From positions 1 to 34,511 of the forward strand of contig RFVQ01000003.1 of assembly GCA_009922495.1 (NCBI GenBank): a DNA stretch of 34,511 nt, in the 5' to 3' direction. The stretch comes from Chitinophagia bacterium (GTDB taxonomy: Bacteria > Bacteroidota > Bacteroidia > Chitinophagales > Chitinophagaceae). The notes beneath the pieces were generated by a model. That model saw only the letters and a list, made by a program, of their open reading frames with translations. It ran no database searches and was not told the DNA's origin. Shown piece by piece: positions 2 to 20,872 of the stretch (positions are counted from its first letter, which is position 1; each line of letters opens with the position of its first letter). The translations under genes and the position numbers were made by a program.

Positions 2-871
2 GCCTGGAAAATTCTGGAAAGAAACGGTCGCGCGCTGGATGCGGTTGAACAAGGCGCAAAAGTTCCCGAAGCAGATGAAAGCAACAAAACGGTTGGATAT
101 GGTGGATACCCCGACCGTGATGGTCGTGTCACCTTGGATGCCTGCATCATGGATGAAAACGGCAACTGTGGTTCGGTTATGGCCTTGGAACACATTAAAC
201 ACCCAATTTCTGTTGCCCGGATGGTGATGGAAAAAACCCCACATGTGATCCTGGTTGGTGATGGCGCACTTCAGTTTGCCCTTCAAAATGGCTTCAAAAA
301 AGAGAATTTGCTGACCCCTGACAGCGAAAAGGCCTGGAAGGAATGGCTAAAACAGGCCAAATATGAGCCGGTCATGAATATAGAAAACAAAACCTATCAG
401 GAACCCGTACCAGGTGCTTTTCCAGGAAGCATTGATAACCATGATACCATCGGGATATTGGCTTTAGACGCAATGGGAAATCTTAGTGGTGGCTGTACCA
501 CCAGCGGAATGGCATTCAAAATGCATGGACGGGTGGGTGACTCCCCTGTCATTGGCGCAGGACTTTTTGTAGACGGAGAAATTGGTGCCGCTACCTCAAC
601 TGGTGTTGGAGAAGAAGTTATCAGATGCGTTGGTTCTCATTTAGTTGTAGAATACATGCGACAAGGAAATTCACCCAGAGAAGCCTGCAAAAAAGTGGTG
701 GAAAGGATTGCCAAAAGAGACATGGAGAAGGCTAAAAAGATTCAGATTGGATTCCTGGCAATGGATAAATATGGCAATTACGGCGCCTATGCCCTTCAAA
801 AAGGGTTTAGTTATGCTGTAAAAACAAATGATAAAGAGGTAGTTATACCAGGTGAATATTTTTTTGAATAA
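2..871 (+). CDS. N4-(beta-N-acetylglucosaminyl)-L-asparaginase (glycosylasparaginase, Ntn hydrolase), 5' end cut by window edge
   Basis: Frame 2 is open from the window edge (AWKILERNGRALDAVEQG...VGYGGYPDRDGRVTLDACIMDENG...). Autoprocessing motif NHD|TIG and HGRVGDSPVIGAG, as in bacterial glycosylasparaginases. Confidence 0.93.
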   Translation, partial: AWKILERNGRALDAVEQGAKVPEADESNKTVGYGGYPDRDGRVTLDACIMDENGNCGSVMALEHIKHPISVARMVMEKTPHVILVGDGALQFALQNGFKKENLLTPDSEKAWKEWLKQAKYEPVMNIENKTYQEPVPGAFPGSIDNHDTIGILALDAMGNLSGGCTTSGMAFKMHGRVGDSPVIGAGLFVDGEIGAATSTGVGEEVIRCVGSHLVVEYMRQGNSPREACKKVVERIAKRDMEKAKKIQIGFLAMDKYGNYGAYALQKGFSYAVKTNDKEVVIPGEYFFE

Positions 872-873
872 GG

Positions 874-1605
874 ATGAAATACGAATTAGAAGTCATAGCC
901 TTTGATATTGATTCTTGTCGCTTAGCCCAGGAAGCCGGTGCAGACAGGATTGAACTCTGTGCCAACCCAATGGAAGGTGGCACAACTCCCTCATTGGGAA
1001 TGATCAAAGAAGCCAGAAGTCAAGCATCCATTCAGCTATTCCCCATCATCCGCCCCAGAGGTGGAGATTTTTTATATAATGATCAGGAATTCAATATTAT
1101 GTGCAATGATATTGAAGCATGTGTTGAGCTTGGTTGTGACGGTGTGGTCATAGGTTTGCTGAATGAAAATGGATATATAGATAGCAATAGGGTTCAAAAA
1201 CTGGTTGAGATTGCCGGCCCCATAGAAGTGACTTTTCATCGTGCATTTGACAGGGTAAAAGATCCCATCGTTTCCCTAGAAGAAATTATAGCAACTGGTT
1301 GTAAAAGAATTCTTACGAGTGGTTTAAGTCAACAATCTATTGATGGCATGGCTCAACTGAAATCAATGGTTCAACAAGCAGGAAACAGGATCACCATCAT
1401 GGTTGGCTCAGGGGTTACCTCCCATAACATCCATCAGATTGCTGCTGAAACCGGCGCCCACGCCTTTCATAGTTCAGCCAGAACCCGTCATGCTTCAAAA
1501 ATGACTTACCATAGTGAGACCATGAAAGAAGATCTTTCTACCTATACCATCAATCCGGAAGAAGTCCGAAATCTCAAAAAAGCACTAGACCAACATTTCC
1601 AATAA
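874..1605 (+). CDS. cutC: CutC family protein (annotated copper homeostasis protein)
   Basis: 243 aa, (beta/alpha)8-type sequence with EAGADRIELCANPMEGGTTPS, FPIIRPRGGDFLY and VTFHRAFD motifs typical of CutC. Confidence 0.93.
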   Translation: MKYELEVIAFDIDSCRLAQEAGADRIELCANPMEGGTTPSLGMIKEARSQASIQLFPIIRPRGGDFLYNDQEFNIMCNDIEACVELGCDGVVIGLLNENGYIDSNRVQKLVEIAGPIEVTFHRAFDRVKDPIVSLEEIIATGCKRILTSGLSQQSIDGMAQLKSMVQQAGNRITIMVGSGVTSHNIHQIAAETGAHAFHSSARTRHASKMTYHSETMKEDLSTYTINPEEVRNLKKALDQHFQ

Positions 1606-1612
1606 AAGCCAT

Positions 1613-4369
1613 ATGCCAGCCCATTTTCACAAAAAATACCTTTTCACCTTCAGCGGTATCCTTGTTTTGGGTGCCGCCTATCTCCTGTTTTTCTCCAATA
1701 CCCCTGTGGACTACAATACACAGGTAAAACCCATCCTCAACCAAAAATGCATTTCCTGCCATGGTGGGGTCAAAAAAAAGGGGGGATTCAGCCTTTTGTT
1801 TAGAGAGGAGGCCCTCTCTCCCACCGAATCAGGCAAACCTGCTATCATTCCCGGCGATGCTGCCAACAGTGACATGATCCGCCGACTTCACCTTTCCGAT
1901 CCTGAGGAAAGAATGCCTTATAAGGAGGAGCCCTTGACAGATGAGGAGATTTCCATTTTGACCAGATGGGTCGATGAAGGGGCCAAATTCGGTACCCATT
2001 GGGCTTATCAAACCATAACATCTCCATCCATTCCTTCTTCCGGTTTTTTCTCCTTTTTTCAAAAACAGTCTCCGCATCCCATCGATCGGTTCATAGATGA
2101 GAAATTGGGTGAAGTCGATCTCTCTCGTTCACCCGAAGCCGATAAAAAAACCTTGCTCCGAAGGGTATCACTTGACTTGATTGGCATACCTGCACCGGAT
2201 AGCATTGCCCAAAAATACCTGAACAGCAAGGATCCCAAAGCCTATGAAATATTGGTAGAGGATCTGATGTCAACCCCAGCATATGGAGAACGTTGGACTG
2301 CCCTCTGGTTGGATCTGGCCAGATTTGCTGATACAAAGGGTTATGAAAGGGATTATATACGGTCCATTTGGCGTTACCGCGACTGGCTGATCAAGGCTTT
2401 TAATGAGGATAAACCCTATGATCAATTTTTGGTCGAACAATTGGCTGGAGATCTTTTACCGGACCCTTCCGATGAACAATTTATTGCAACTGCCTACCAT
2501 CGGAATACCATGAACAATGATGAGGGGGGTACAGACAATGAAGAATTCAGAACTGCCGCCATCATCGACAGGGTCAATACCACCTGGGAAACCCTTATGG
2601 GTACCAGCTTTGCCTGTGTTCAGTGTCATAGTCATCCCTATGATCCTATCCGACATGAAGAGTATTATCGCTTCATGGCTTATTTCAACAATTCAAGGGA
2701 TGAAGACACTTATGACGAATATCCCTTGCTGAGAGAGTTTAGGCCGTCCGGTCAATTGCGCTATGATTCTGTGATGAACTGGATAAAAGGAAAGGGAACC
2801 AAGGAACAACTTATTTTTTATCGAAGCCTCTTGAAAACGGGACAACAATGCGTTAACAGTATTACCGCAGATTCAATGGTCAATGCAGCATTGGAAGACA
2901 CAAAATTTCTTCGGTTGAGGAAGATGGGATCGGCACGTTTTAAAAATGTTGATTTCACCGGCAAACCGAATATGCTGATCAGATTCCGCAATCCAATCGA
3001 CAAAGGGCTGCTCAATATCTACATGGATAGTATGAAAAATCCAGCTATCCAATCTGTTAAGATGGATAAGACCAAAGATGGATGGAACATTGTCAAGCTA
3101 ACCCTACCAAAGGAGATCAAAGGAAAACATGATATCTATTTACACTATGATAGCAAACTGCTGAAAAAGCCAGAAGAGAATGGTATGGTGATGGACTGGT
3201 TTGTCATGACACCGGACTTCCCCACCGATGGCAGTCCAGATTCCAAAATCCATGAAGCATTGTCGCTTCAAGTACTCAACCACCCGGATGCAGAACTAAC
3301 CCCCATCATGCTGGATAATCCTGCATACATGAAAAGGAAGACTCATGTATTTGAAAGAGGAAACTGGCTGCTAAAAACCAAAGAGGTTGAACCAGGAATA
3401 CCTGCCATTTTTGTGAATAACAAAGAGATCAAACAAAAAAACAGATATGGATTGGCTATGTGGATGACCGATAAAAAAAATCCATTGACTTCCCGAACCA
3501 TGATCAACCGACTTTGGGAACAATTATTTGGACAAGGTTTGGTGGAAACCCTTGAAGATCTTGGCTCTCAAGGAGCATTGCCAACACACCCTGAATTGCT
3601 GGATTATCTGTCCTATGAATTCATGCATACTGATAAATGGAGTATCAAAAAAACGCTCAAGAGGATGGTCATGTCAGAGACATACCGACAATCATCTGTT
3701 GTAACGCCCGACATGCGCAAAAAAGATCCTCTCAATAAATATTATGCCCGTGCGCCGAGGGTTCGTTTAACAGCGGAACAGGTAAGGGATCAGGCCTTGG
3801 CCATTTGCGGCGTATTGAGCCCGAAAATGTTCGGCCCTAGCGTAATGCCCTATCAACCTGATGGCATTTGGTCCTCACCTTACGACAATAGAAAATGGAC
3901 AATGAGTCAGGGAGAAGATCAATACAGAAGAGCCATCTATACCTATGTTAAAAGAACCGGCCCCTACCCTTCCATGATCAATTTTGACGGATCTGCAAGG
4001 GAAGTTTGTTTAACAAGAAGGATCAGAACCAATACTCCTTTACAGGCATTGACATTGCTGAACGATTCAACCTATTGGGATGTTTCAGTTCGTTTGGCAA
4101 AAAGCTGCTTGGCGTCTGAGCATCAGAATTTCACAAAGGCAATTTCCAAAAGCTATGAAAAAGCTACCGGAAAGCCAATCGATCCCCAAAAACAAAACAC
4201 ATTTGTTGCACTCTATAGAAACAGTTTGCTGAAATTAGGAGATGACACATCCAGGATAAAAACCATGCTTTCAGATTCTGTCTTTAGAAAGGGACAGAAA
4301 GAGTTGGCAGCACTATCTGTAGTAACCAATGCCATTCTCAACCTGGATGAAGTAATCACCAAAAATTAA
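1613..4369 (+). CDS. PSD1-type planctomycete cytochrome c / DUF1549 / DUF1553 domain protein
   Basis: N-terminal TM/signal anchor, CISCHGG heme site, second CVQCHSHPYDP site, and DUF1553-like LTSRTMINRLWEQLFGQGLVETLEDLG...HPELLDYLS...YRQSS motifs. Confidence 0.93.
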   Translation: MPAHFHKKYLFTFSGILVLGAAYLLFFSNTPVDYNTQVKPILNQKCISCHGGVKKKGGFSLLFREEALSPTESGKPAIIPGDAANSDMIRRLHLSDPEERMPYKEEPLTDEEISILTRWVDEGAKFGTHWAYQTITSPSIPSSGFFSFFQKQSPHPIDRFIDEKLGEVDLSRSPEADKKTLLRRVSLDLIGIPAPDSIAQKYLNSKDPKAYEILVEDLMSTPAYGERWTALWLDLARFADTKGYERDYIRSIWRYRDWLIKAFNEDKPYDQFLVEQLAGDLLPDPSDEQFIATAYHRNTMNNDEGGTDNEEFRTAAIIDRVNTTWETLMGTSFACVQCHSHPYDPIRHEEYYRFMAYFNNSRDEDTYDEYPLLREFRPSGQLRYDSVMNWIKGKGTKEQLIFYRSLLKTGQQCVNSITADSMVNAALEDTKFLRLRKMGSARFKNVDFTGKPNMLIRFRNPIDKGLLNIYMDSMKNPAIQSVKMDKTKDGWNIVKLTLPKEIKGKHDIYLHYDSKLLKKPEENGMVMDWFVMTPDFPTDGSPDSKIHEALSLQVLNHPDAELTPIMLDNPAYMKRKTHVFERGNWLLKTKEVEPGIPAIFVNNKEIKQKNRYGLAMWMTDKKNPLTSRTMINRLWEQLFGQGLVETLEDLGSQGALPTHPELLDYLSYEFMHTDKWSIKKTLKRMVMSETYRQSSVVTPDMRKKDPLNKYYARAPRVRLTAEQVRDQALAICGVLSPKMFGPSVMPYQPDGIWSSPYDNRKWTMSQGEDQYRRAIYTYVKRTGPYPSMINFDGSAREVCLTRRIRTNTPLQALTLLNDSTYWDVSVRLAKSCLASEHQNFTKAISKSYEKATGKPIDPQKQNTFVALYRNSLLKLGDDTSRIKTMLSDSVFRKGQKELAALSVVTNAILNLDEVITKN

Positions 4370-5856
4370 TGACAATGGAAAAAATCGTCAAAGAAGCCAG
4401 GCAGAAAACATTGTCCTTTCAAACCAGAAGACATTTTCTTCAGGATTGTAAGACTGGCATGGGGATGATGGCCCTTGGATCGATACTGGATGGATGCAAT
4501 TTTTTTGCTCCCCAAACGGATGCAGAAACGAGCAGCAATCCCTTGGATGTAAAAGCACCACAATTTCAAGGCAAGGCAAAATCTGTTATTTTCCTTCACA
4601 TGGCAGGTGCCCCATCGCAACTGGAGCTATTCGACTATAAGCCGGAACTCACCAAATTAGACGGACAGGATTGTCCGGACTCTTTTATCCAAGGAAAAAA
4701 ATTTGCTTTTATCCGAGGTGTTCCCAAATTGCTAGGGCCACAAGCGAACTTTAAGCAGCATGGTCAAAGCGGACTTTGGCTTTCTGATAATCTCCCTCAT
4801 TTTAGCCAGGTTATCGATGATGTCACCATTTTAAAAGCCGTCAATACAGACCAATTCAATCATGCTCCAGCACAATTGCTCATGCATTGCGGAACACCGA
4901 GATTGGGAAGGCCCAGCATGGGATCCTGGGTCACCTACGGATTGGGATCAGAAAATAGTAACCTGCCGGGATTTGTGGTGCTTACTTCCGGCGGCAGAAA
5001 CCCGGATGCAGGCAAAAGCATTTGGGGAAGCGGTTTTCTTCCATCCGTATACCAAGGCGTGCAATGCAGATCTGAAGGAGATCCTGTTCTTTTTTTAAAA
5101 GACCCCAATGGTTTTGACAGGGATATGCGCAAAGCATCGATTGAAACCATCAACAAGGTCAACGAATTGACCTATCAACAATACCAAGACCCGGAGATCA
5201 TGTCCAGGATCTCGCAATATGAGATGGCTTTCAAGATGCAAGTGGCTGTTCCAGATGTAATGACCATTGCAGATGAACCGGCATACATCCATGAAATGTA
5301 TGGAACTGAACCGGGACAAGAATCTTTTGCCAACAATCTTTTATTGGCAAGAAAACTGGTTGAAAAAGGAGTAAGATTTGTACAGCTTTTTGATTGGGGA
5401 TGGGACAGTCACGGAACCGATCCGGGTACAGCCTTAGACCTTGGATTTATCAACAAGTGCTATAAAATGGACAAAGCCATTTCAGCATTTTTGCTGGATC
5501 TCAAACAACGTGGCTTGCTGGAGGAAACCCTAGTGGTTTGGGGAGGAGAATTTGGCAGGACACCCATGCAGGAAAACAGAGATGGAAAACAAAATACTTT
5601 CAAAGGTCGAGACCACCATGCTGATGCTTTTTCCATGTGGATGGCAGGAGGTGGAATCAAAGGTGGCTTCAGTCATGGAGAAACAGACCCCATTGGATAC
5701 AATGCCATTGATGGAAAAGTTTCTGTTTATGATATTCAGGCAACCATCCTTCATCAATTAGGCTTTGATCACGAAAAACTGACGTACTCATTTCAGGGAA
5801 GATCATTCCGACTCACAGATGTTTTTGGTAAAAAAATTGACCCCATCATCGCTTAG
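4369..5856 (+). CDS. DUF1501 domain-containing (alkaline-phosphatase/sulfatase-fold) protein with Tat-like signal
   Basis: TRRHFLQD twin-arginine motif, FLHMAGAPSQLELFDYKP, GRNPDAGKSIWGSGFLPSVYQG, VVWGGEFGRTPM...GRDHHADAFSMWMAGGGIKGG. Start codon overlaps the upstream stop (TAATG). Confidence 0.94.
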   Translation: MTMEKIVKEARQKTLSFQTRRHFLQDCKTGMGMMALGSILDGCNFFAPQTDAETSSNPLDVKAPQFQGKAKSVIFLHMAGAPSQLELFDYKPELTKLDGQDCPDSFIQGKKFAFIRGVPKLLGPQANFKQHGQSGLWLSDNLPHFSQVIDDVTILKAVNTDQFNHAPAQLLMHCGTPRLGRPSMGSWVTYGLGSENSNLPGFVVLTSGGRNPDAGKSIWGSGFLPSVYQGVQCRSEGDPVLFLKDPNGFDRDMRKASIETINKVNELTYQQYQDPEIMSRISQYEMAFKMQVAVPDVMTIADEPAYIHEMYGTEPGQESFANNLLLARKLVEKGVRFVQLFDWGWDSHGTDPGTALDLGFINKCYKMDKAISAFLLDLKQRGLLEETLVVWGGEFGRTPMQENRDGKQNTFKGRDHHADAFSMWMAGGGIKGGFSHGETDPIGYNAIDGKVSVYDIQATILHQLGFDHEKLTYSFQGRSFRLTDVFGKKIDPIIA

Positions 5857-5880
5857 ACATAAATATTTGAAATAAAACGA

Positions 5881-7269
5881 ATGGATCCTATTTCAATAAT
5901 TGGCAGATTTCATCCAGTCCTTGTTCATTTACCGATTGGGATTTTTGTAGCAGCTATTTTGCTTGCTGCCTTGTCTATGGTTGAGAAATACAGATTCCTC
6001 AGGGATTCCACTCGCATCATATTGGGGATAGGCCTTATCACTGCAGTTCTTTCCATGGTGTCAGGATATGTTCTTTCTTTAGAAGGCAGCAATTCAGAAG
6101 CGGATGTTGAAATTCACCAATGGACTGCCATCGGGATGACATTGATCTATGCAGCGTATTTCTTTTTTAGCCCACTGATAACAAATCATAAATATCCCAA
6201 CTTAATTGCCTTGTTGATTTTACTGGGCAGCTTGGTTCTAACAGGACACCAGGGAGGATCGTTGACGCATGGTGAAAATTTTCTTTGGTCAATGGGTACA
6301 GAAAATGATAAAAAGACTACCCTTCCGGTAATTGCCGACATACAAAAAGCAGATATATACCGAGACATTGTTGGGCATACCCTGCAAACAAAATGTGTAG
6401 AATGCCATGGTGCCAACAAACAAAAAGGAAAATTGAGGCTGGATGATCCAACTTGGATCGACAAGGGCGGAAAGAACGGGGCTGTTCTGGTAAAGGGCGA
6501 TGCTGAGAACAGTGAGTTGATCAAAAGACTTTTATTGGATGAAAGTGATGATCATCACATGCCTCCTAAAGAGAAAGAACAACTGACCACTGCTGAAAAA
6601 TCAATTTTATCCTGGTGGATCCGCACAGGGGCTAAATACACTGCCACTGTTGAGTCTCTGGCACCAGATGAAAATATCTTGAAAGAGCTGGAAAATTTCA
6701 AGTCGAATCTGACAAGACCCGAAGTAAAAAATATTGAACGTCCAGTGGTTACCGCTGCAGATGCTTTGCTCATACAATCCTTAAAAAAAATAGGCTGGGT
6801 TATTTCCCCCATAGCTGTCAATGACAATCACCTGAGGGCTACAGGATTCAATCTGACAGTAGACATAGATTCTGCTCTCACCCTTTTGGGAGGGGTTGCA
6901 GATCAACTGATCGAACTGAAGTTGAACAAGTCAGGCATTAATGATTCAAGCATTTATAGAATTGAAAAGTTTCAATCCCTTGAAAAATTGTGGTTAGAGA
7001 ACAATTCCATTTCTGATATTGGAATCAATTCGATCAACAAGTTAAAGCATCTGCAATACTTGAACTTGTCGAATACACAGATCACAACAACCGGACTAAA
7101 AAAAATAATCAGTCTTGGTCAATTGAGATCCATTTATGTAAGCAGAACGGAAATACGTCCTGAAGACGCTAAACAGATGATGGCTTTGCTAAAAAATGTA
7201 AAAATATTCACCTCCGACAGTCTTCCTAAACTTCCAACCGACAGCCTGTTGGTCAAAAAAGAAAAGTAA
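5881..7269 (+). CDS. DUF2231-type membrane domain + planctomycete-type cytochrome c (CVECHG) + C-terminal leucine-rich repeats
   Basis: N-terminal GRFHPVLVHLPIGIFVAAILL with several TM helices, then CVECHGANKQKGKLRLDD...HHMPPKEKEQLT, then LRR-like LEKLWLENNSISDIGINSINKLKHLQYLNLSNTQITTTGL. Confidence 0.9.
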   Translation: MDPISIIGRFHPVLVHLPIGIFVAAILLAALSMVEKYRFLRDSTRIILGIGLITAVLSMVSGYVLSLEGSNSEADVEIHQWTAIGMTLIYAAYFFFSPLITNHKYPNLIALLILLGSLVLTGHQGGSLTHGENFLWSMGTENDKKTTLPVIADIQKADIYRDIVGHTLQTKCVECHGANKQKGKLRLDDPTWIDKGGKNGAVLVKGDAENSELIKRLLLDESDDHHMPPKEKEQLTTAEKSILSWWIRTGAKYTATVESLAPDENILKELENFKSNLTRPEVKNIERPVVTAADALLIQSLKKIGWVISPIAVNDNHLRATGFNLTVDIDSALTLLGGVADQLIELKLNKSGINDSSIYRIEKFQSLEKLWLENNSISDIGINSINKLKHLQYLNLSNTQITTTGLKKIISLGQLRSIYVSRTEIRPEDAKQMMALLKNVKIFTSDSLPKLPTDSLLVKKEK

Positions 7270-7271
7270 AA

Positions 7272-8294
7272 TCAATGGAACAACCGCTGGTAGGATTTTA
7301 AGAGATGCAATTGATTTTTGGTTCTGTCAAAATTGTTCATTTCGTATTTAATTCCATAATATACATCTCCATTGAGAAAATCTGCCAAGAAACGAATGGC
7401 TTGCATGAAGATCATGAATTCACCTGCATATGGGATGAGTTCCTTTTCTTTTGAAGTCAACTGATCTGCCATTTTGGAAAGATAGCCTTCTATGATAGCA
7501 TCCTTAAAATCATTTCTGGCAAATATTGTTTCAAGATCAGTTTCTTCTTCAGATCCTGGAGAGAGATAGGTTCTGAACATATCGCCCAGGTCACTGATGA
7601 AATAACCGGGCATTACCGTATCCAAGTCAATCGGACAAATACCCTTTTTGTATTCATTGAAAAGTACATTGTTGATTTTGGTGTCATGATGTGTAACCCT
7701 TAGTTGATAGGCCCTATCCTGGAGTACAGCATTGAATCTATCCACAATATGTAAGTTGTCCATTACAAGTTTTATCTCATTCCCAGCAAGTTGAATACGC
7801 TCTGGAATACCGTTGGAAAGAGATTCATTGAACTGTTTCCAGCGAAAAGAAAGATCATGAAATCCAGGTATGGAGGGTTTTAAAAGACGGATATCAAATC
7901 CCTCAAAGGAAGAAGTAAATCGACCAAATTGAAGAGCCGCTTCATATGCTTCATCCGGAGAGTTGCAGCTATCAAAAGAACGAGAATTGGGTACGAAAGG
8001 GGTTAATCGGTAATATTCTCCCTGTTGAAGGGCATAGGGCTCCCCTTTCAGGGTATGCATGGGCATTGGAAAGAAAACCTCCTGTTGCCTGGAAACTAAA
8101 AAAGCCGATAAATGATCAAGGTTATCGGCAATATCCAATGGGTTTTTGAAGACGGAAGTATTCAGCTTTTGTAGGATGTATAACGACTTTCCATTGTTTT
8201 GAACTTTGTAAGTGGAATGGATCAAGCCATTTCCGAAAGGGATTGTGTCCAGTTCATGGTTTGTACCTAAGAAAGCTGATAATATTTCTTGCAT
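7272..8294 (-). CDS. Aminoglycoside-phosphotransferase-fold kinase, resembling N-acetylhexosamine kinase (NahK)-type proteins
   Basis: GNGLIHSTYKV...SLYILQKLNTSVFKNP at the N-terminus, APH catalytic THHDTKINNVLF and DLDT. The ORF track start (8303) is a TTG; the ATG at 8294 is preferred. Confidence 0.8.
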   Translation of the reverse strand: MQEILSAFLGTNHELDTIPFGNGLIHSTYKVQNNGKSLYILQKLNTSVFKNPLDIADNLDHLSAFLVSRQQEVFFPMPMHTLKGEPYALQQGEYYRLTPFVPNSRSFDSCNSPDEAYEAALQFGRFTSSFEGFDIRLLKPSIPGFHDLSFRWKQFNESLSNGIPERIQLAGNEIKLVMDNLHIVDRFNAVLQDRAYQLRVTHHDTKINNVLFNEYKKGICPIDLDTVMPGYFISDLGDMFRTYLSPGSEEETDLETIFARNDFKDAIIEGYLSKMADQLTSKEKELIPYAGEFMIFMQAIRFLADFLNGDVYYGIKYEMNNFDRTKNQLHLLKSYQRLFH

Positions 8295-8299
8295 GAAGA

Positions 8300-9538
8300 T
8301 CAATATAAAAGACGCACTTTGATCGTGCCTTTTACTTTGCGAAGCAGATCAGCTGCGTTTTTGGATAATTTTTTATCGACATCCAACACCACATAACCAA
8401 TCTCATCATTGGTCTTTAGGTATTGTCCCAGAATATTGATTTTATGATCAGACAAACTGATGTTGATCTCAGAAAGTACACCGGGGACATTTTGATGTAT
8501 ATGAAGTATCCTATGGGTTCCTTCCACGGGGGTAAGATTCAACTCCGGCACTGTATGCGAACCATAGGTAGAACCCATTTCCAGGTACTGGAGTAATTTA
8601 CTGCTTACATCTTCCCCGATATTGTGTTGTGCTTCTTCGGTTGAACCGCCAATATGAGGTGTCAGGAGAACATTGGAAAGATTTTGAAGCGGTGAGCTGA
8701 AATGATCTCCGTTTTTTTCGGGTTCCCAAGGGAATACATCAATGGCAGCCCCGCTCAAATGGCCCTCTTGCAGTGATTTGGACAAAGCATCCAGGTCCAC
8801 CACCTCTCCTCTCGCAAAATTGATCAATATTGCACCTTTCTTAAACTGCTTTAAAAGAGATTTGTTGATGATGTTCTTGGTCTGGCTTGTTTCAGGGATG
8901 TGCAAGGTCACAATATCAGACTCTGAAACCAGCTCTTTTAAGGATTTTCTAGCATCTGCATTGCCCAAAGGAAGTTTGGTCAGCACATCATAAAAGATAA
9001 CTTTCATGCCCATGGCCTCAGCAAGTATACTTACTTGTGAACCGATATTGCCGTATCCGATGATGCCTAATTTTTTGCCCCTGAGTTCAAAACTGCCTTT
9101 TGCATCTTTGTTCCAGATGCCTTCATGAGCGGCTTTGTTTTTGTCTAGGATTTTTCTGATCAAAATGATAGAGGCTCCAATGACCAGTTCTGCAACAGAG
9201 CGGGTATTGCTGTATGGAGCATTGAATACAACCACTCCTCTTTTTCGGGCTGCTGCAAGATTTACCTGGTTGGTTCCAATACAAAAACAACCAATGGCCT
9301 GTAATTTTTCGGCATGCTGGAGAACCCTTTCAGTTATCTGGGTTTTGGAACGGATGCCGATCATGTGGACATTTTTAATTTCCTGGATCAATTGATCCTC
9401 GGACAAGGCCCCACTGATTTTTTTGATATCTGAATACCCGGCATCCCTAAAGGCCCTGATGGCAGCCTCACTGATGTTCTCCAGAAAAAGAATCTTTATC
9501 TTATCTTTTGGATAGCTGGTAGTGGATGAACTCGCCAT
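8300..9538 (-). CDS. serA: D-3-phosphoglycerate dehydrogenase with C-terminal ACT domain
   Basis: LGIIGYGNIGSQVSILAEAMGM Rossmann motif, INFARGEVVDLDAL, LTPHIGGSTEEAQHNIG; ACT-like HIHQNVPGVLSEINISLSDHKINILGQYLKT. Start refined to ATG at 9538 (MASSSTTSYPK). Confidence 0.93.
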   Translation of the reverse strand: MASSSTTSYPKDKIKILFLENISEAAIRAFRDAGYSDIKKISGALSEDQLIQEIKNVHMIGIRSKTQITERVLQHAEKLQAIGCFCIGTNQVNLAAARKRGVVVFNAPYSNTRSVAELVIGASIILIRKILDKNKAAHEGIWNKDAKGSFELRGKKLGIIGYGNIGSQVSILAEAMGMKVIFYDVLTKLPLGNADARKSLKELVSESDIVTLHIPETSQTKNIINKSLLKQFKKGAILINFARGEVVDLDALSKSLQEGHLSGAAIDVFPWEPEKNGDHFSSPLQNLSNVLLTPHIGGSTEEAQHNIGEDVSSKLLQYLEMGSTYGSHTVPELNLTPVEGTHRILHIHQNVPGVLSEINISLSDHKINILGQYLKTNDEIGYVVLDVDKKLSKNAADLLRKVKGTIKVRLLY

Positions 9539-14702: not shown

Positions 14703-15719
14703 TTACCAAATATTCCTTGGACAAAGATCGCCATATACATTGTTCAGGGTAAAACCCAAAACAATTTCATGGGTACCGCGGTTCATGGTACTCAAAAGAT
14801 ATTTCCCCCTATTGAGGTCATACGCATAACTTACGTTCAACGTATGGGCAATATTCAATCCTACCATACCAGAAAAACCATCGCCTTTTCTGAAATTACC
14901 TCCGATCCACATCAAATCCCTGTATTGCGTTTTTAGGTTCACATCAACCCCCAATGGGATTCCCGCTATATACCTCACCATAGTCGAGGGCAGGATTGAA
15001 ATATCATTGCTTAGCTGTATACGATACCCAGCGGTCATAAAAAGATGGGGAATCAAAGTTGATTTATAGATTGAACTGTCCACCAAATTCAATCGAACCG
15101 GTATGATTTGCTGTGCAGAAAGTCCTGCAAAGTAATTTGAGGAATACAGCCATAGACCGGCATTCATTTCAGGCTTGATTTTGGTCAAATTGCTGGTAGA
15201 ATTGCCAATGGCTGGATCAAAAGGGGTAGCCAGTGTAATTTTACTTTGATTGATATTAAAGGAAGATAAGCCTAAACCAAAACCCGCAGCAAGACTGGTT
15301 GTTGCAGACAATCCCATATGGTAGGAATATGTCCCATAGGTGGTGGTTCGGTTTATGTAACCTGTAGCATAGTTAATCACTGTAAGGCCTACTCCATGAT
15401 GAGGAGGAGCTGGAGTATAATTGGCCCAATACTCTCTGCCCCTGGGATTTTGTCCTTTCATGTCAAAAGAAGAAACTGATTCACGGTAATCTTTTTTGCC
15501 TATTGATCCGTGAACAGTAGCATACAAAGTCTTGGGGGCTCCCTCAATTCCCAACCACTGGTTTCTCATGCTCAACTTGACATCAATATAATTCTCTATG
15601 CCACCAATAGCAGGATTTACTATGTAGTTATTCATAATATACTGCGTATAATGTGGGCGTTGTTGAGCCTTAACACATACTATTGATAAAATGAATAAAA
15701 GGGTTATACAATTTTTCAT
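14703..15719 (-). CDS. Type IX secretion system membrane protein, PorP/SprF family
   Basis: Signal peptide then QQRPHYTQYIMNNYIVNPAIGGIENYIDVKLSMRNQWLGIEGAPKTLYATVHG, the classic PorP/SprF N-terminus; directly downstream of a T9SS cargo gene. Confidence 0.93.
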   Translation of the reverse strand: MKNCITLLFILSIVCVKAQQRPHYTQYIMNNYIVNPAIGGIENYIDVKLSMRNQWLGIEGAPKTLYATVHGSIGKKDYRESVSSFDMKGQNPRGREYWANYTPAPPHHGVGLTVINYATGYINRTTTYGTYSYHMGLSATTSLAAGFGLGLSSFNINQSKITLATPFDPAIGNSTSNLTKIKPEMNAGLWLYSSNYFAGLSAQQIIPVRLNLVDSSIYKSTLIPHLFMTAGYRIQLSNDISILPSTMVRYIAGIPLGVDVNLKTQYRDLMWIGGNFRKGDGFSGMVGLNIAHTLNVSYAYDLNRGKYLLSTMNRGTHEIVLGFTLNNVYGDLCPRNIW

Positions 15720-15721
15720 GC

Positions 15722-18700
15722 TTATTTAATAATGGTTACATATCCTGCTATCTTTCGCCTACCCGACTTGGGATCAATTACATAATAGTAAGTACCGAAC
15801 GGAAGTGCTTTTCCATTACTGGTTCCATCCCATTTGTTTGCATATCCAACAGACCGATAGACCAATTGTCCTTGTGTAGTATATACTTCAAGAACACATC
15901 CAGGATATTGATCAAGATACTTTATTTCCCATTGATCATTTACCCCGTCACCATTGGGGGTAAAGGTATTGGGAGGTTTTGGAAGTTTTAAAACAGTAAC
16001 CAAGAGATCGTCAGTGCTTGTACAAGCACCCCTACCGGTCACACTCAAAGTATAAACAATATCCTCTTGTGGCTTTACCACCAGGGGTTGCAGAATATTC
16101 ACATCAGACAAATACGTTGCGGGACTCCAGCGATACACCAAAGCATCCCCAGAGGCTGCAGCGAAAATTTGTTTTTGACCATCGTCCAACACAAATAGAT
16201 CAGGCCCTGCTGAAATCTTGGGATATGGATGAATTATAATTTGTTTACTTGTTGTATCTGAGATACAACCTTCAGAAGACTTGACCCACAAAGAAATCAA
16301 GAAGCTTCCGGAAGCCCTGTGTTGATACAATGGATTTTTTTGGGTATCTGTGGCTCCATTTCCAAAATCCCAGTTCCATTCACTGATCGGTCTTACAAAC
16401 CCCGTACTGGTATCAAGATATTGTATGTCCTTTCCCAGACAAACCGAATCAAGACTGCTAAATCCTGCTTTGGGCTGAGGGAAAACATCCACCAGTACTT
16501 TGGCAATTGAATCAATGCATCCATTGCTCGTTGTTGCGACCAATTTTATGTTGTAAGCTCCCAAAGCAGAAAAATAATGAAGACCATCTTTGGCAACTGT
16601 AACGGAGGGATCCCTTGTATCACCATATGTCCACTTATAGGTCAGCAAAGATCCTGTACCATCTGGAACATCTGTATTGTTCAGAAATACCGCTTTACCC
16701 TCAGGTAAACAGACCTTGGGCAAGGTAAAATTCACGATGGGCAATGGATTTACTTTGACTGGCACCACTTTGGGGATACTGGTACAACCATTGGTGGTGA
16801 CAACATCCAAACTGGCATTATAGGTATTGTAGGAAGTGTATGTATAGTTCTGAGGGCTGCCATTGTTTACTTTCCTTACAGCTGACCCATCTCCAAAAAT
16901 CCAATTCCAACTGACAATCGATCCTGCATTTGCAATAGATTTATCAGTAAATGTAATGGCGTTTTTCTCACAGGTAATGTTAGCAATTGTAAAATCTGCC
17001 GTTGGCCTGGGCCAAACAATGATATTTCCCTTGGTCTCAGAAAAACATCCTTTGGAGGAAGTAAATCGATAGATTATTTCATGGGTGCCAGGTGTAGCCA
17101 GTGCTGGGTCAAAAACACCACTTGTACTGACCCCATTTCCTTTAAAAGTTTCAAATCCAGGGGGTATTCCTGATACATCCGTGAAACTTGCCTCGTTTAA
17201 TCTCCGTGGTTGAGCTTCCAGGCAAATTCCTTGCAATGATTGCATGCTTACCAAAGGACTTCCTTTGACAACAATGGTCTTCAATTCATCATCCACACAG
17301 CTCCCGCCAGAAAATGCCCTGATACGGATGGTGAATGTTTTGGTTGCCTGGTTGAGAAAATCGCTATAAAGATTGGTATAAATCTTGTTAACCGATGGAT
17401 TATCATCGGAGACAAAAGTAGTTGGACTGTTTAGATAATCCCAATAGATTTCCAGCTTGGAAACAGTACCAAAATCAACGGTGGACAAATTTTGGATACC
17501 AACACTGGTATTGCTGCAAAGCGAATCTGATCTTAAAACAGTAAAATCTGCTTTAGGGGTAGCCCCATTCACGGTGAAAGACTGAGAAAGTGAACTGATG
17601 CATCCTACAGAACTGGTTGATTTTAGAACAACTGTATATACCCTGGCTGCTGAATATTTATGTGTTGCCAATGTGCCCGTTCCTGCATCAGGGTTTGAAC
17701 TGCTTGCATTGGGGTCACCAAATTGCCATTCATGGCTCAATTTCTGTAAGGTGTCGGCCAGTGTTGTTGTACTTTTGAATTCTGCAAAAGCATCGTTCAA
17801 ACATACTTCAGGAAGTGTGAAACCCACATTGGGCTTGGGATTGATCCTAACAGTCTTTAGCAGTGTATCACTCTTGCAACCTTTTGAATTTTCTACCATC
17901 AAGCTGATCACCTGATCACCCCATTGGGTAAAGACGGTAGAAATAACAGCAGCTGGATCCGTGATATCCAAGGAGGATGCCGTAGTGCCTAATTTCCAAT
18001 TCCATCGTTTGATGGACCCTACATTGGCAACAGCTTCTTGTAAAAAACCAACCGTTTCTGTAGCACATGCCGGATCCACCATTCTGAATTGTGGAGTAGG
18101 AAGTGGATGAATCGTAAAAGACTTTGAAATCGTATCACTGACACAACCATCAGCAGTAAACCCATGCAAGGTGGCAGTATAGGTGCCGGGGGCATTGACC
18201 TTTATCAATGGATTTTTCAAAGTATCTGATGTGCCGTTGGAAAAAGACCAGTTCCATTTTTTCAATACCCTTCCCTGAGGGTTGATCAAATCATTGAATT
18301 GTGTAGACTCGCGCAGGCAAACTTCTGGCGTCACAGTAAAATCAGCCTTGGGTTGAGCATATACTGAATTTAATATTTGGGTAAGAGAATCAACACAGCC
18401 ATTGCCTGAGGTAACTATGAGTTTTACATTGTAGGGTCCGATAGTAGAATATCGGTGAACAGGAGACGATACAATAGCGGTGTCAGGATTGGAAGCATTG
18501 GCGTTGGGGTCTCCAAAAAACCATTTATAAGAAAAAGCAGCACTGGTTCCGTTGGAGATGGAAGATGCATCCGTAAAATTGGCTTTGCCATCGGGAAGAC
18601 AGACAATGGGTATACCAAAAGAAACTTTTGGATTAGGATAGTTGGTAAAGGTTAATCTTTTTTCGGGACTTAAACAGCCATTTGCTGTCTTGACTTTCAA

Positions 18701-20872
18701 CCCCACACTATATTGCTGTGCATTGGGATACTTGGCCAAAACAGAAACATTCGTTGTATTTACGATAGGAGATCCGGTACCGAGGTCCCAGTTCCATTCA
18801 GAAAGGATGCTATTGCCCAATGGCCTGGAAGAATCAGCAAAACGGATGTCCTTGTCCACACAAGTCAAACTTTTTATTGAAAAATCAGGAACTGGTATAC
18901 TATCCAAAAATATGTCAGCTTTTGATGTATCACTTAAACATCCGACATCCGTAATAGAAAAAAACCTGACCGTATATTTTCCAGTAGAAACAAATTTATG
19001 CTTGAAGGACTTTTTAATATTGGTAAAACTTCCATCCCCTAAATCCCACATATACCTGGTGATCGGCCTGGTCACCACTGAACTCGTATCCTCAACCAGC
19101 AAAGAATCGGTTATACAATTGGTTGTTTGCAAACGAAAAGTAGATTTAGGCCTTTCAAATACCTGAAGATCATAGTCAATCTGTTGCTCTCCGGAACAGC
19201 CTTCTACTGTTGGATTATTGGCAATTACCCTGATGTTATAGGTCTTGATGGTATCATATTTATAAAAATTCGGTAACGAATAATACCATACTTTTTTACC
19301 ATTGATGGTTTTGGTAGAATCAGATTGTGGTGAATTGATTTTGGGAATGGGCGGATAGTTGGGTATTACCCATTGTAACGACAATGGTTCATATGGAATG
19401 GAAATCACAAATTTAAAAGGAGTTCCACTACAGGTAGCAGGTAAATTGACAGTTGCATATTGATTGTAAGAAGATAACGTCTGGTATAAATCTTTTACAT
19501 TGGTTCCAGCATTGTATCCATACGTTTCTGTATTTCCATATCCATAGGCAATGGCATTGAAACCAGAATCAGATTGTATGGTGTGGGAACCCGCTGTGAG
19601 CCCAACTTGGTAATAAATGTAATTGCTCTCCTGTGGATGTACAGTTGAAAGCGAAAGAGGTGTAGCTCCGTCAATTTTCAAAGAATTGGCACCATTCTTA
19701 TGAATAACAATATTGATATAATGCAAAGTGATGCCTGCATTGGGAGTTGAATTGATGGTAACTTTATCAATCGTCTGTTCTATCGGACTTAAATAGATCA
19801 TCTCGGGGTCTCCCCTTCCACCGATAAAGGTATTCCCGCATTGCCCCGTGGTCGTAATATACTGTGCTACCATGATGGGTTGATCGGATTCAATCAGGTC
19901 AGGAGTACTACTTTGGTAATCGTAGTAAAATCCGTTTACCAATCCTGTAAGGACTACACCATTTCTTTTGACAACTGTTCCCGGTTTGCTCACCGCTATT
20001 CTGAAAAAATTATTGGGCATGTCCTTGGTAGGTGCTGTAAGGTATTTCTTGCCCCATGCATTTGCAGGGAAGGATTGTTGCATATAGTTATCAGCACTGC
20101 CAGAGCCATTGTTACAAGTAATACTTACCTTACCCGAACCTGAATACACCGCAATGCGTTTACATGGACTGGTGGGTGTTGCAACTGATCTAATCAAGGT
20201 GCCGGTAAGATCTTCCCCCAAAAAAGGGTTTGCATTGGTCAGTAACTTTCCAAATATATTGTACACCTCCCCTTTATTCAGTTTAACCCTAATCGTATCT
20301 CCTTTGGCGTTTAATATTGTATTGGCGCTGGGAATGATCTCAACATTTGTATCATCCTCTGTTGCAATGACATAGGAAAAACAATAAGAATAGGCCTGGT
20401 TGGATATTTGCTTATAGTTAACTGAATAATATTCCCTGGCGAGTGTATTTACCGGAAAAAGCAAAGTGGCGCCCGAAATCGAAGCATTGTAGATATGAGC
20501 ATATGCAATAATCGGCACATCAGAAGTTATGTGAATCCCTTTACCAGACTTTCCTTCATCTGTTATCCTTGCATCCTGTCCAGTTGCCTTGGGTATGGTG
20601 GCTGAAGTAGTAACCTGATTTGCAGTGACCGTATAGGTTCTGGTCCAACCAATGGAAGGTATATCTACCGTTACATTTGCGTTTCGGTCTGACGTAAAAT
20701 ACAAAACCATGTCTTGTGCACCCCCGGAAGGAATGATGGTACCATTGGAATTGTACATCGAACAATGGCTTCCATATCCCACCCAAAATTCAGTCCCCTT
20801 ATTGGAAAAATCCTGACCCACTGCCCTGAGTGACACTAAAACAATAAGAATCAAGAAGATACAATTACGCAT
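15722..20872 (-). CDS. Giant T9SS-exported adhesin-like protein: signal peptide, IgGFc-binding-like N-terminal domain, ~10-11 PKD/Ig-like modules, gliding-motility-type (type B) C-terminal domain
   Basis: N-terminus FSNKGTEFWVGYG...GKGIHITSDVPIIAYAHIYNASISGATLLFPV; repeated [W-x-(F/L)G-(D/T/N)] and GxY/GC modules; C-terminus PPNTFTPNGDGVNDQWEIKYLDQYPGCVLEVYTTQGQLVYRS...WDGTSNGKALPFGTYYYVI...GYVTIIK. Confidence 0.93.
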   Translation of the reverse strand: MRNCIFLILIVLVSLRAVGQDFSNKGTEFWVGYGSHCSMYNSNGTIIPSGGAQDMVLYFTSDRNANVTVDIPSIGWTRTYTVTANQVTTSATIPKATGQDARITDEGKSGKGIHITSDVPIIAYAHIYNASISGATLLFPVNTLAREYYSVNYKQISNQAYSYCFSYVIATEDDTNVEIIPSANTILNAKGDTIRVKLNKGEVYNIFGKLLTNANPFLGEDLTGTLIRSVATPTSPCKRIAVYSGSGKVSITCNNGSGSADNYMQQSFPANAWGKKYLTAPTKDMPNNFFRIAVSKPGTVVKRNGVVLTGLVNGFYYDYQSSTPDLIESDQPIMVAQYITTTGQCGNTFIGGRGDPEMIYLSPIEQTIDKVTINSTPNAGITLHYINIVIHKNGANSLKIDGATPLSLSTVHPQESNYIYYQVGLTAGSHTIQSDSGFNAIAYGYGNTETYGYNAGTNVKDLYQTLSSYNQYATVNLPATCSGTPFKFVISIPYEPLSLQWVIPNYPPIPKINSPQSDSTKTINGKKVWYYSLPNFYKYDTIKTYNIRVIANNPTVEGCSGEQQIDYDLQVFERPKSTFRLQTTNCITDSLLVEDTSSVVTRPITRYMWDLGDGSFTNIKKSFKHKFVSTGKYTVRFFSITDVGCLSDTSKADIFLDSIPVPDFSIKSLTCVDKDIRFADSSRPLGNSILSEWNWDLGTGSPIVNTTNVSVLAKYPNAQQYSVGLKVKTANGCLSPEKRLTFTNYPNPKVSFGIPIVCLPDGKANFTDASSISNGTSAAFSYKWFFGDPNANASNPDTAIVSSPVHRYSTIGPYNVKLIVTSGNGCVDSLTQILNSVYAQPKADFTVTPEVCLRESTQFNDLINPQGRVLKKWNWSFSNGTSDTLKNPLIKVNAPGTYTATLHGFTADGCVSDTISKSFTIHPLPTPQFRMVDPACATETVGFLQEAVANVGSIKRWNWKLGTTASSLDITDPAAVISTVFTQWGDQVISLMVENSKGCKSDTLLKTVRINPKPNVGFTLPEVCLNDAFAEFKSTTTLADTLQKLSHEWQFGDPNASSSNPDAGTGTLATHKYSAARVYTVVLKSTSSVGCISSLSQSFTVNGATPKADFTVLRSDSLCSNTSVGIQNLSTVDFGTVSKLEIYWDYLNSPTTFVSDDNPSVNKIYTNLYSDFLNQATKTFTIRIRAFSGGSCVDDELKTIVVKGSPLVSMQSLQGICLEAQPRRLNEASFTDVSGIPPGFETFKGNGVSTSGVFDPALATPGTHEIIYRFTSSKGCFSETKGNIIVWPRPTADFTIANITCEKNAITFTDKSIANAGSIVSWNWIFGDGSAVRKVNNGSPQNYTYTSYNTYNASLDVVTTNGCTSIPKVVPVKVNPLPIVNFTLPKVCLPEGKAVFLNNTDVPDGTGSLLTYKWTYGDTRDPSVTVAKDGLHYFSALGAYNIKLVATTSNGCIDSIAKVLVDVFPQPKAGFSSLDSVCLGKDIQYLDTSTGFVRPISEWNWDFGNGATDTQKNPLYQHRASGSFLISLWVKSSEGCISDTTSKQIIIHPYPKISAGPDLFVLDDGQKQIFAAASGDALVYRWSPATYLSDVNILQPLVVKPQEDIVYTLSVTGRGACTSTDDLLVTVLKLPKPPNTFTPNGDGVNDQWEIKYLDQYPGCVLEVYTTQGQLVYRSVGYANKWDGTSNGKALPFGTYYYVIDPKSGRRKIAGYVTIIK

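Follow-up and report, generated by a model that had tools for sequence, protein, structure and literature searches.

A set of three genes, which encode a cytochrome of the PSCyt1-PSCyt2-PSD1 family (gene 1), a DUF1501 protein (gene 2) and a DUF2231-PSCyt1-LRR protein (gene 3), is located at positions 1613 to 7269 of contig RFVQ01000003.1 from a Chitinophagia bacterium (assembly GCA_009922495.1). The stretch of 34,511 nucleotides (nt) that contains it is referred to as the window; it is contig C113 of a 2.5-Mb assembly with 416 contigs and 94% completeness. The module was confirmed and is conserved; its domain set has already been reported in Verrucomicrobia (He et al. 2017, PMC5615132). To the extent of the literature searched, the following are new: a fourth gene and its likely repeated loss, the predicted CBM6 domain in gene 1, gene fusions, a rule that links DUF1501 to its partners, and a probable kinship of PSD1 with DUF1800. 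From sequence comparison, PSCyt2-PSD1 and DUF1800 are probably the haem-bearing and haem-free branches of one family, with a protein exported by the twin-arginine (Tat) route, DUF1501, as the obligate partner of both; together they would represent a widespread two-protein envelope machine, with the planctomycete-type cytochromes as a redox addition to it.

Gene order, haem sites and domains

Gene 1 (1613..4369, plus strand, 918 amino acids (aa)) consists of an N-terminal hydrophobic segment followed by PSCyt1, PSCyt2 (DUF1549), CBM6 and PSD1 (DUF1553) and carries two CxxCH motifs; gene 2 (4369..5856, plus strand, 495 aa) encodes the DUF1501 protein, with a predicted Tat signal and an alkaline phosphatase superfamily fold; gene 3 (5881..7269, plus strand, 462 aa) combines DUF2231, the predicted membrane part, with PSCyt1 (CVECH) and LRR. 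Order and coordinates are exactly those of the initial annotation, which was made from the sequence alone, and its domain calls were reproduced with Pfam (PSCyt1, PSCyt2 and PSD1 in gene 1, DUF1501 in gene 2, DUF2231, PSCyt1 and LRR in gene 3), the weakest call being DUF2231 (35 bits, cut-off 26.4). The succession of PF07635, PF07583 and PF07587 with two CxxCH motifs assigns gene 1 to the PSCyt1-PSCyt2-PSD1 family; no NCBIfam model matched genes 1 to 3. Both junctions were also found as described: the stop codon TAA of gene 1 ends at 4369, where the ATG of gene 2 begins (1-nt overlap, TAATG), and genes 2 and 3 are separated by 24 nt (5857..5880, plus strand), a slot that is empty here and is occupied in many relatives by an exported xylose-isomerase-like gene.

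Loci of relatives were picked for the presence of PSD1, and all synteny counts are conditional on it. Within the genus (PSD1 orthologues of 48–70% identity), DUF1501 follows PSD1 directly in 18 of the 19 loci with room for it, in no case with a gap longer than 30 nt, and in 15/15 a gene for DUF2231 follows within three genes. DUF1501 adjoins PSD1 in 42/45 loci of a sample of the phylum Bacteroidota, in 35/40 of named Bacteroidota genomes and in 28/44 from other phyla, again of named members; the corresponding counts for a nearby third gene are 25/41, 19/25 and 5/24. The envelope redox module of a Bacteroidota genome that had been proposed in the initial annotation was thus put to the test of conserved synteny in relatives, and is supported by it.

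In six cases, the membrane part, DUF2231, is fused to the PSD1 protein (C52, L122, L136, L137, L138 and L205), and these fusions indicate that genes 1 and 3 encode parts of one complex. The first is from the same assembly (C52; L018 644-4669): a 1341-aa DUF2231-PSCyt1-PSCyt1-PSCyt2-PSD1 protein with three CxxCH motifs, followed by DUF1501. In many genomes these DUF genes are present in several copies; in the assembly studied here, a second full trio is located on C2. A DUF1501 gene and a haem-free DUF2231-LRR gene are located on C370 (L017 4135-6521) beside an N run of approximately 3 kb, in which the partner gene of this DUF1501 may sit. Three tandem PSD1-DUF1501 pairs are present in locus L116 (1186-15796), where the last feature is a DUF2231-PSCyt1-LRR gene, and in the module of locus L101 (13071-15572) an inserted gene of the fucosidase family GH95 separates PSD1 from DUF1501.

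All three haem-binding motifs that had been noted initially (CISCHGG, CVQCHSH and CVECHGA) are present, and their Cys and His residues are conserved in relatives (63/63, 67/67 and 66/68 for sites 1, 2 and 3). Composition shuffles of the three proteins gave 0.003 CxxCH motifs in all three together, versus the three observed. The PSCyt1 domain of gene 1 (1748..1918, plus strand, residues 46-102) contains CISCH and an invariant M101-P102, the likely axial Met, and its profile matches the cytochrome FoxE in a profile search of the PDB (E 2.3e-6). A Met-Pro pair is conserved after the PSCyt1 domains of both gene 1 and gene 3, which fits predicted Met-ligated class I haems. The PSCyt1 sites hence show the features of c-type cytochromes (CxxCH and an axial ligand in an exported protein); the second haem site of gene 1 lies in PSCyt2 (2078..2698, plus strand, residues 156-362; CVQCHSH at 2615-2635). 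In the DUF2231 part of gene 3, His 11, 16 and 79 are invariant, and His 123 and 130 nearly so. Pfam also gave a weak match to CTI, a fatty acid cis/trans isomerase, at 1883-2008 (gene 1 residues 91-132) and in 6/16 orthologues; the match of the window protein is confined to the cytochrome region.

Between PSCyt2 and PSD1, the AlphaFold2 model of gene 1 (mean predicted local distance difference test score (pLDDT) 78) contains a β-sandwich at residues ~418-533 (2864..3211, plus strand), which was matched to CBM6 by Foldseek (E ~2e-5, template modelling score (TM-score) on target 0.73-0.77). Pfam did not call CBM_6 in the window protein itself; it did so in 8/16 orthologues (best 8.3e-9), and the family profile retrieves CBM6 chains from the PDB (E 0.03). 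On the modelled fold and the family profile, gene 1 is assigned a CBM6 domain, and sugar binding is predicted. The PSD1 domain follows at 3440..4213 (plus strand, residues 610-867) and has remote similarity to DUF1800.

DUF1501 and its partners

DUF1501 (PF07394) is matched by gene 2 over its full length (E 7.7e-147, model 1-390 of 390). The twin-arginine motif, RRHFL (R20-L24; 4426..4440, plus strand), is conserved in PSD1-type relatives (R20 in 135/135, R21 in 133/135). Foldseek matches listed for the structural model (mean pLDDT 81.5) are LtaS, sulfatases, alkaline phosphatase and PMH, with E values from 7e-8 to 8e-6 and low TM-scores of 0.3-0.4; in a PDB profile search, 18/18 matches belong to the alkaline phosphatase superfamily, each of them weak alone. 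The formylglycine motif of sulfatases (CxPSR; C/S-x-P-S-R) is absent from the window protein and from its alignment, and the Asp-His metal pair of sulfatases aligns with Glu394-Phe395. H165, D346, H348, D377, E394, R397 and H416 are common to 135 PSD1-type and 29 DUF1800-type DUF1501 proteins; among these, D346, H348, E394 and H416 suggest a putative metal site. DUF1501 is a member of the alkaline phosphatase superfamily whose active site is unusual, and it is no canonical sulfatase: it has the fold of sulfatases, alkaline phosphatase and LtaS, but lacks the formylglycine motif and has altered metal ligands. A sulfatase role was rejected on the absence of this motif. Of the phosphatase/sulfatase-fold hydrolase that had been expected initially, the fold was partly borne out by Foldseek and the PDB profiles; the hydrolase was not supported, given the missing CxPSR and the change from Asp-His to Glu-Phe.

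DUF1501 could nevertheless be the enzyme of the module, a metal-dependent hydrolase or transferase of the alkaline phosphatase fold that acts on phospho- or sulfo-esters of glycans, for which the PSD1 protein would present the substrate and the haems would tune or sense redox state instead of converting the substrate. The fold matches, the superfamily membership of all PDB profile matches, the seven polar residues kept in both types of DUF1501, the pairing with haem-free DUF1800 and the sulfatase-family domains in a few flanks speak for this possibility, which we regard as rather unlikely in view of the missing CxPSR motif and altered metal pair of sulfatases, the low TM-scores and the lack of a single conserved nucleophile (position 83 is Ser in 118/135 PSD1-type and Asp in 29/29 DUF1800-type proteins).

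The occurrence of DUF1501 follows a simple rule. Among ~294 Bacteroidota genomes it was found in 135, and PSD1 or DUF1800 was present in 135/135 of those; the converse, PSD1 or DUF1800 without DUF1501, was met in one genome of the sample only (G187, weak DUF1800 match). Genome G353, outside this sample, carries DUF1501 beside PSD1 (locus L130). The two partners were compared by hhalign: the PSD1 domain aligned collinearly with DUF1800 at P 1.4e-5 and a score of 48.8, versus a maximum of 22.8 among 60 column shuffles and a score of 20.1 on reversal (both controls apply to this comparison), and a 148-sequence set gave P 1.1e-4. In reciprocal hmmsearch, the best non-self matches of each family were to the other (E 0.001 and 3e-5, to be taken with caution as the sequences are mutually related), and Pfam's model of DUF1800 reaches into a PSD1 domain with E 0.077. 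PSCyt2 alone versus DUF1800 was not significant (P 0.035-0.054), with the best match at the collinear N-terminal place. Full-length PSD1 proteins gave only an artefact against DUF1800 (P 0.02), and domain-wise comparison is needed. CxxCH was found in 0/31 DUF1800 proteins. The profile comparisons suggest that DUF1800 is a haem-free relative of PSD1, a kinship that was not found in the literature searched.

The DUF1800-DUF1501 operon pair itself has been published (PMC5122149), and one such pair is located on contig C60 of the same assembly. It resembles the PSD1-DUF1501 pair in an adjacent DUF1501 with the same shared residues and in a helical partner remotely similar to PSD1; it differs in that 31/31 DUF1800 proteins lack a haem motif and in that its DUF1501 branch is strongly diverged (~100 versus ~500 bits). 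The DUF1800-paired DUF1501 of C60 (L019 1443-3017) carries Por_Secre_tail, a sorting tail for type IX secretion that Pfam does not call in the window DUF1501.

DUF1501 depends almost one-to-one on PSD1 or DUF1800, whether the partner has haem or not, and this also speaks for a structural or biogenesis module, in which DUF1501 and its helical partner would be exported to serve envelope assembly as a scaffold or chaperone, with haem and CBM as accessories. The flanking genes are not conserved, LRR and CBM are binding modules, and DUF1800-DUF1501 pairs accompany chitin synthase operons in some bacteria (PMC5122149). Such a role is considered improbable, as the three conserved haem sites (two with a conserved Met) and the conserved polar residues of DUF1501 point to chemistry; the repeated association with an exported isomerase-fold protein also speaks against it.

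A fourth gene in relatives

In many relatives, a xylose-isomerase-like TIM-barrel protein of 290-318 aa (PF01261) is encoded between DUF1501 and gene 3. It bears a Tat signal (in some flavobacteria a Sec-type signal) and conserved Glu, Asp and His residues that look like a metal site; only Art22 was retrieved from solved structures (E 0.014), with no close match. A search of the assembly that contains the window gave no copy of this gene. Of 23 same-genus genomes searched, nine hold a module-type copy (E < 1e-140) and 15 some copy, and the module can thus not be called complete, as it had been initially. The fourth gene was not part of that annotation, nor were the CBM6 domain, the lack of CxPSR or the partner rule of DUF1501.

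In a tree of 71 PSD1 proteins, the presence of the fourth gene changes at least 14 times, and locus L080, nearest to the window in the tree, has it whereas the window does not; the simplest reading is repeated loss from one slot. Since it is patchy and absent here, the gene cannot be essential, and the window locus is a minimal version of the module. In another PSD1 subtype, the slot is occupied by a Tat-type NHL β-propeller.

The planctomycete-specific cytochrome genes of Verrucomicrobia and Planctomycetes have the same domains; according to He et al. 2017 (PMC5615132), their PSCyt2 genes usually adjoin an unknown gene family and are associated with CBMs and sulfatases. The module described here differs in its Bacteroidota host, in its third gene, DUF2231-PSCyt1-LRR, and in the frequent isomerase-fold gene of relatives, the latter two of which are not described in the text consulted.

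Neighbouring genes and possible function

The same-strand run starts upstream of gene 1 with a glycosylasparaginase gene (Asparaginase_2 by Pfam; 2..871, plus strand; best PDB match glycosylasparaginase, E 1.9e-116), the 5' end of which is cut by the contig start, and a gene of the CutC family (874..1605, plus strand; Pfam E 2e-72) in the same directon as the trio. These genes precede gene 1 at gaps of 2 and 7 nt, and the transcript may therefore extend beyond the trio; scans for promoters and terminators gave sites no more numerous than in shuffles and thus say nothing on the transcript start. Downstream, a convergent gene similar to N-acetylhexosamine 1-kinase (NahK; 7272..8303, minus strand; PDB NahK, E 8.3e-54) ends 2 nt from gene 3. 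The same-genus trio usually stands behind glycosylasparaginase and CutC and faces NahK and SerA. The identities of glycosylasparaginase and NahK suggest an N-acetylglucosamine (GlcNAc) salvage neighbourhood conserved within the genus. Elsewhere in the window, a 1716-aa PKD/IgGFc-binding protein with a CHU_C type IX secretion tail (15722-20872) adjoins a PorP/SprF gene (14703-15719). A polysaccharide utilisation locus was considered and rejected: neither SusC/SusD nor a glycoside hydrolase was found among the Pfam-scanned genes of the window, and the flanks of relatives are mostly unrelated.

The trio might be read, in this genus, as part of a five-gene operon for N-glycan salvage: together with glycosylasparaginase and CutC it would act on GlcNAc-Asn glycopeptides, and NahK would lie downstream. 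The short gaps, the enzyme identities and an order conserved in most same-genus loci agree with such an operon, but it appears very doubtful: the trio is found without these genes in other genera, four same-genus loci (L091, L092, L094 and L095) lack them upstream, and a position conserved within one genus can be simple vertical inheritance. Glycosylasparaginase, CutC and NahK are genus-level neighbours; as these genes do not follow the trio into other genera, they are weak evidence on its substrate.

The function that we propose tentatively, at somewhat less than even chances and with the chemistry inferred, is that of one envelope oxidoreductase module, formed by genes 1 to 3, that acts on glycans or their fragments and passes electrons to the membrane. 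The two-haem PSD1 protein and the exported DUF1501 would form a periplasmic complex that holds a glycan or glycan fragment via CBM6; the bound glycan, fragment or a linked group would be oxidised or exchange electrons at the PSCyt2-PSD1/DUF1501 complex, and the electrons would leave via the PSCyt1 haems to the product of gene 3, the membrane protein with the His-rich DUF2231; its conserved His residues and its PSCyt1 haem would suit a conduit linked to quinone or a cytochrome. Where relatives have the fourth gene, its exported product of xylose-isomerase fold would process the oxidised product, a step that in this lineage may have been lost or taken over by another enzyme. The core partnership would be that of DUF1501 with a helical partner; as DUF1501 also pairs with haem-free DUF1800, haem and CBM would be additions in the PSD1 branch.

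The order PSD1 then DUF1501, the fusions, the invariant haem residues and axial Met, CBM6, the exported isomerase-fold gene in the module and the glycosylasparaginase and NahK neighbours were counted in favour of this oxidoreductase. Several observations weigh against it: no catalytic residue for oxidation was identified; no solved structure gave a significant match to the helical PSCyt2-PSD1 core, as the Foldseek matches of the gene 1 model are to its CBM6 only; the PSCyt1 haem of gene 3 is lost in some relatives; the haem-free DUF1800 pair shows that DUF1501 can do without a haem-bearing partner; the fourth gene is as patchy as described and missing here; and in other genera, modules of the 918-aa type have mixed flanks that are mostly unrelated to sugars.

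A search of the open literature gave no functional study of these DUFs; He et al. 2017 also argued for carbohydrate use (PMC5615132). Periplasmic sugar 3-dehydrogenases occur in Caulobacter and Pedobacter (PMC9007349), and oxidation-elimination pathways with TIM-barrel 3-keto-glycoside β-eliminases provide a precedent for the fourth-gene step (PMC10628242, PMC9007349). The LacABC sugar 3-dehydrogenase with its 3-keto-sugar hydrolase (PMC9007349) works in the manner supposed here, with envelope oxidation followed by a processing enzyme; no homology is claimed. AtOGE, one of the β-eliminases (PMC10628242), has the TIM-barrel fold, as has the PF01261 fourth-gene product with its conserved Glu, Asp and His; unlike AtOGE, that product is exported, without a close solved match and absent from the window genome. 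With no copy of the exported TIM-barrel gene in the assembly, the module is not assigned to the dehydrogenase–eliminase pathway for 3-keto-glycosides, and the likeness, one of working only, was given low weight.

The partner rule, the probable DUF1800 sister, the cryptic CBM6 and the fusions sharpen the vague label of a "planctomycete cytochrome" into testable predictions, namely that the products of genes 1, 2 and 3 form a complex, that sugar is bound, and that the chemistry is in common with the DUF1800-DUF1501 pair. This apparent haem-free sister pair offers a route to the function of the module.

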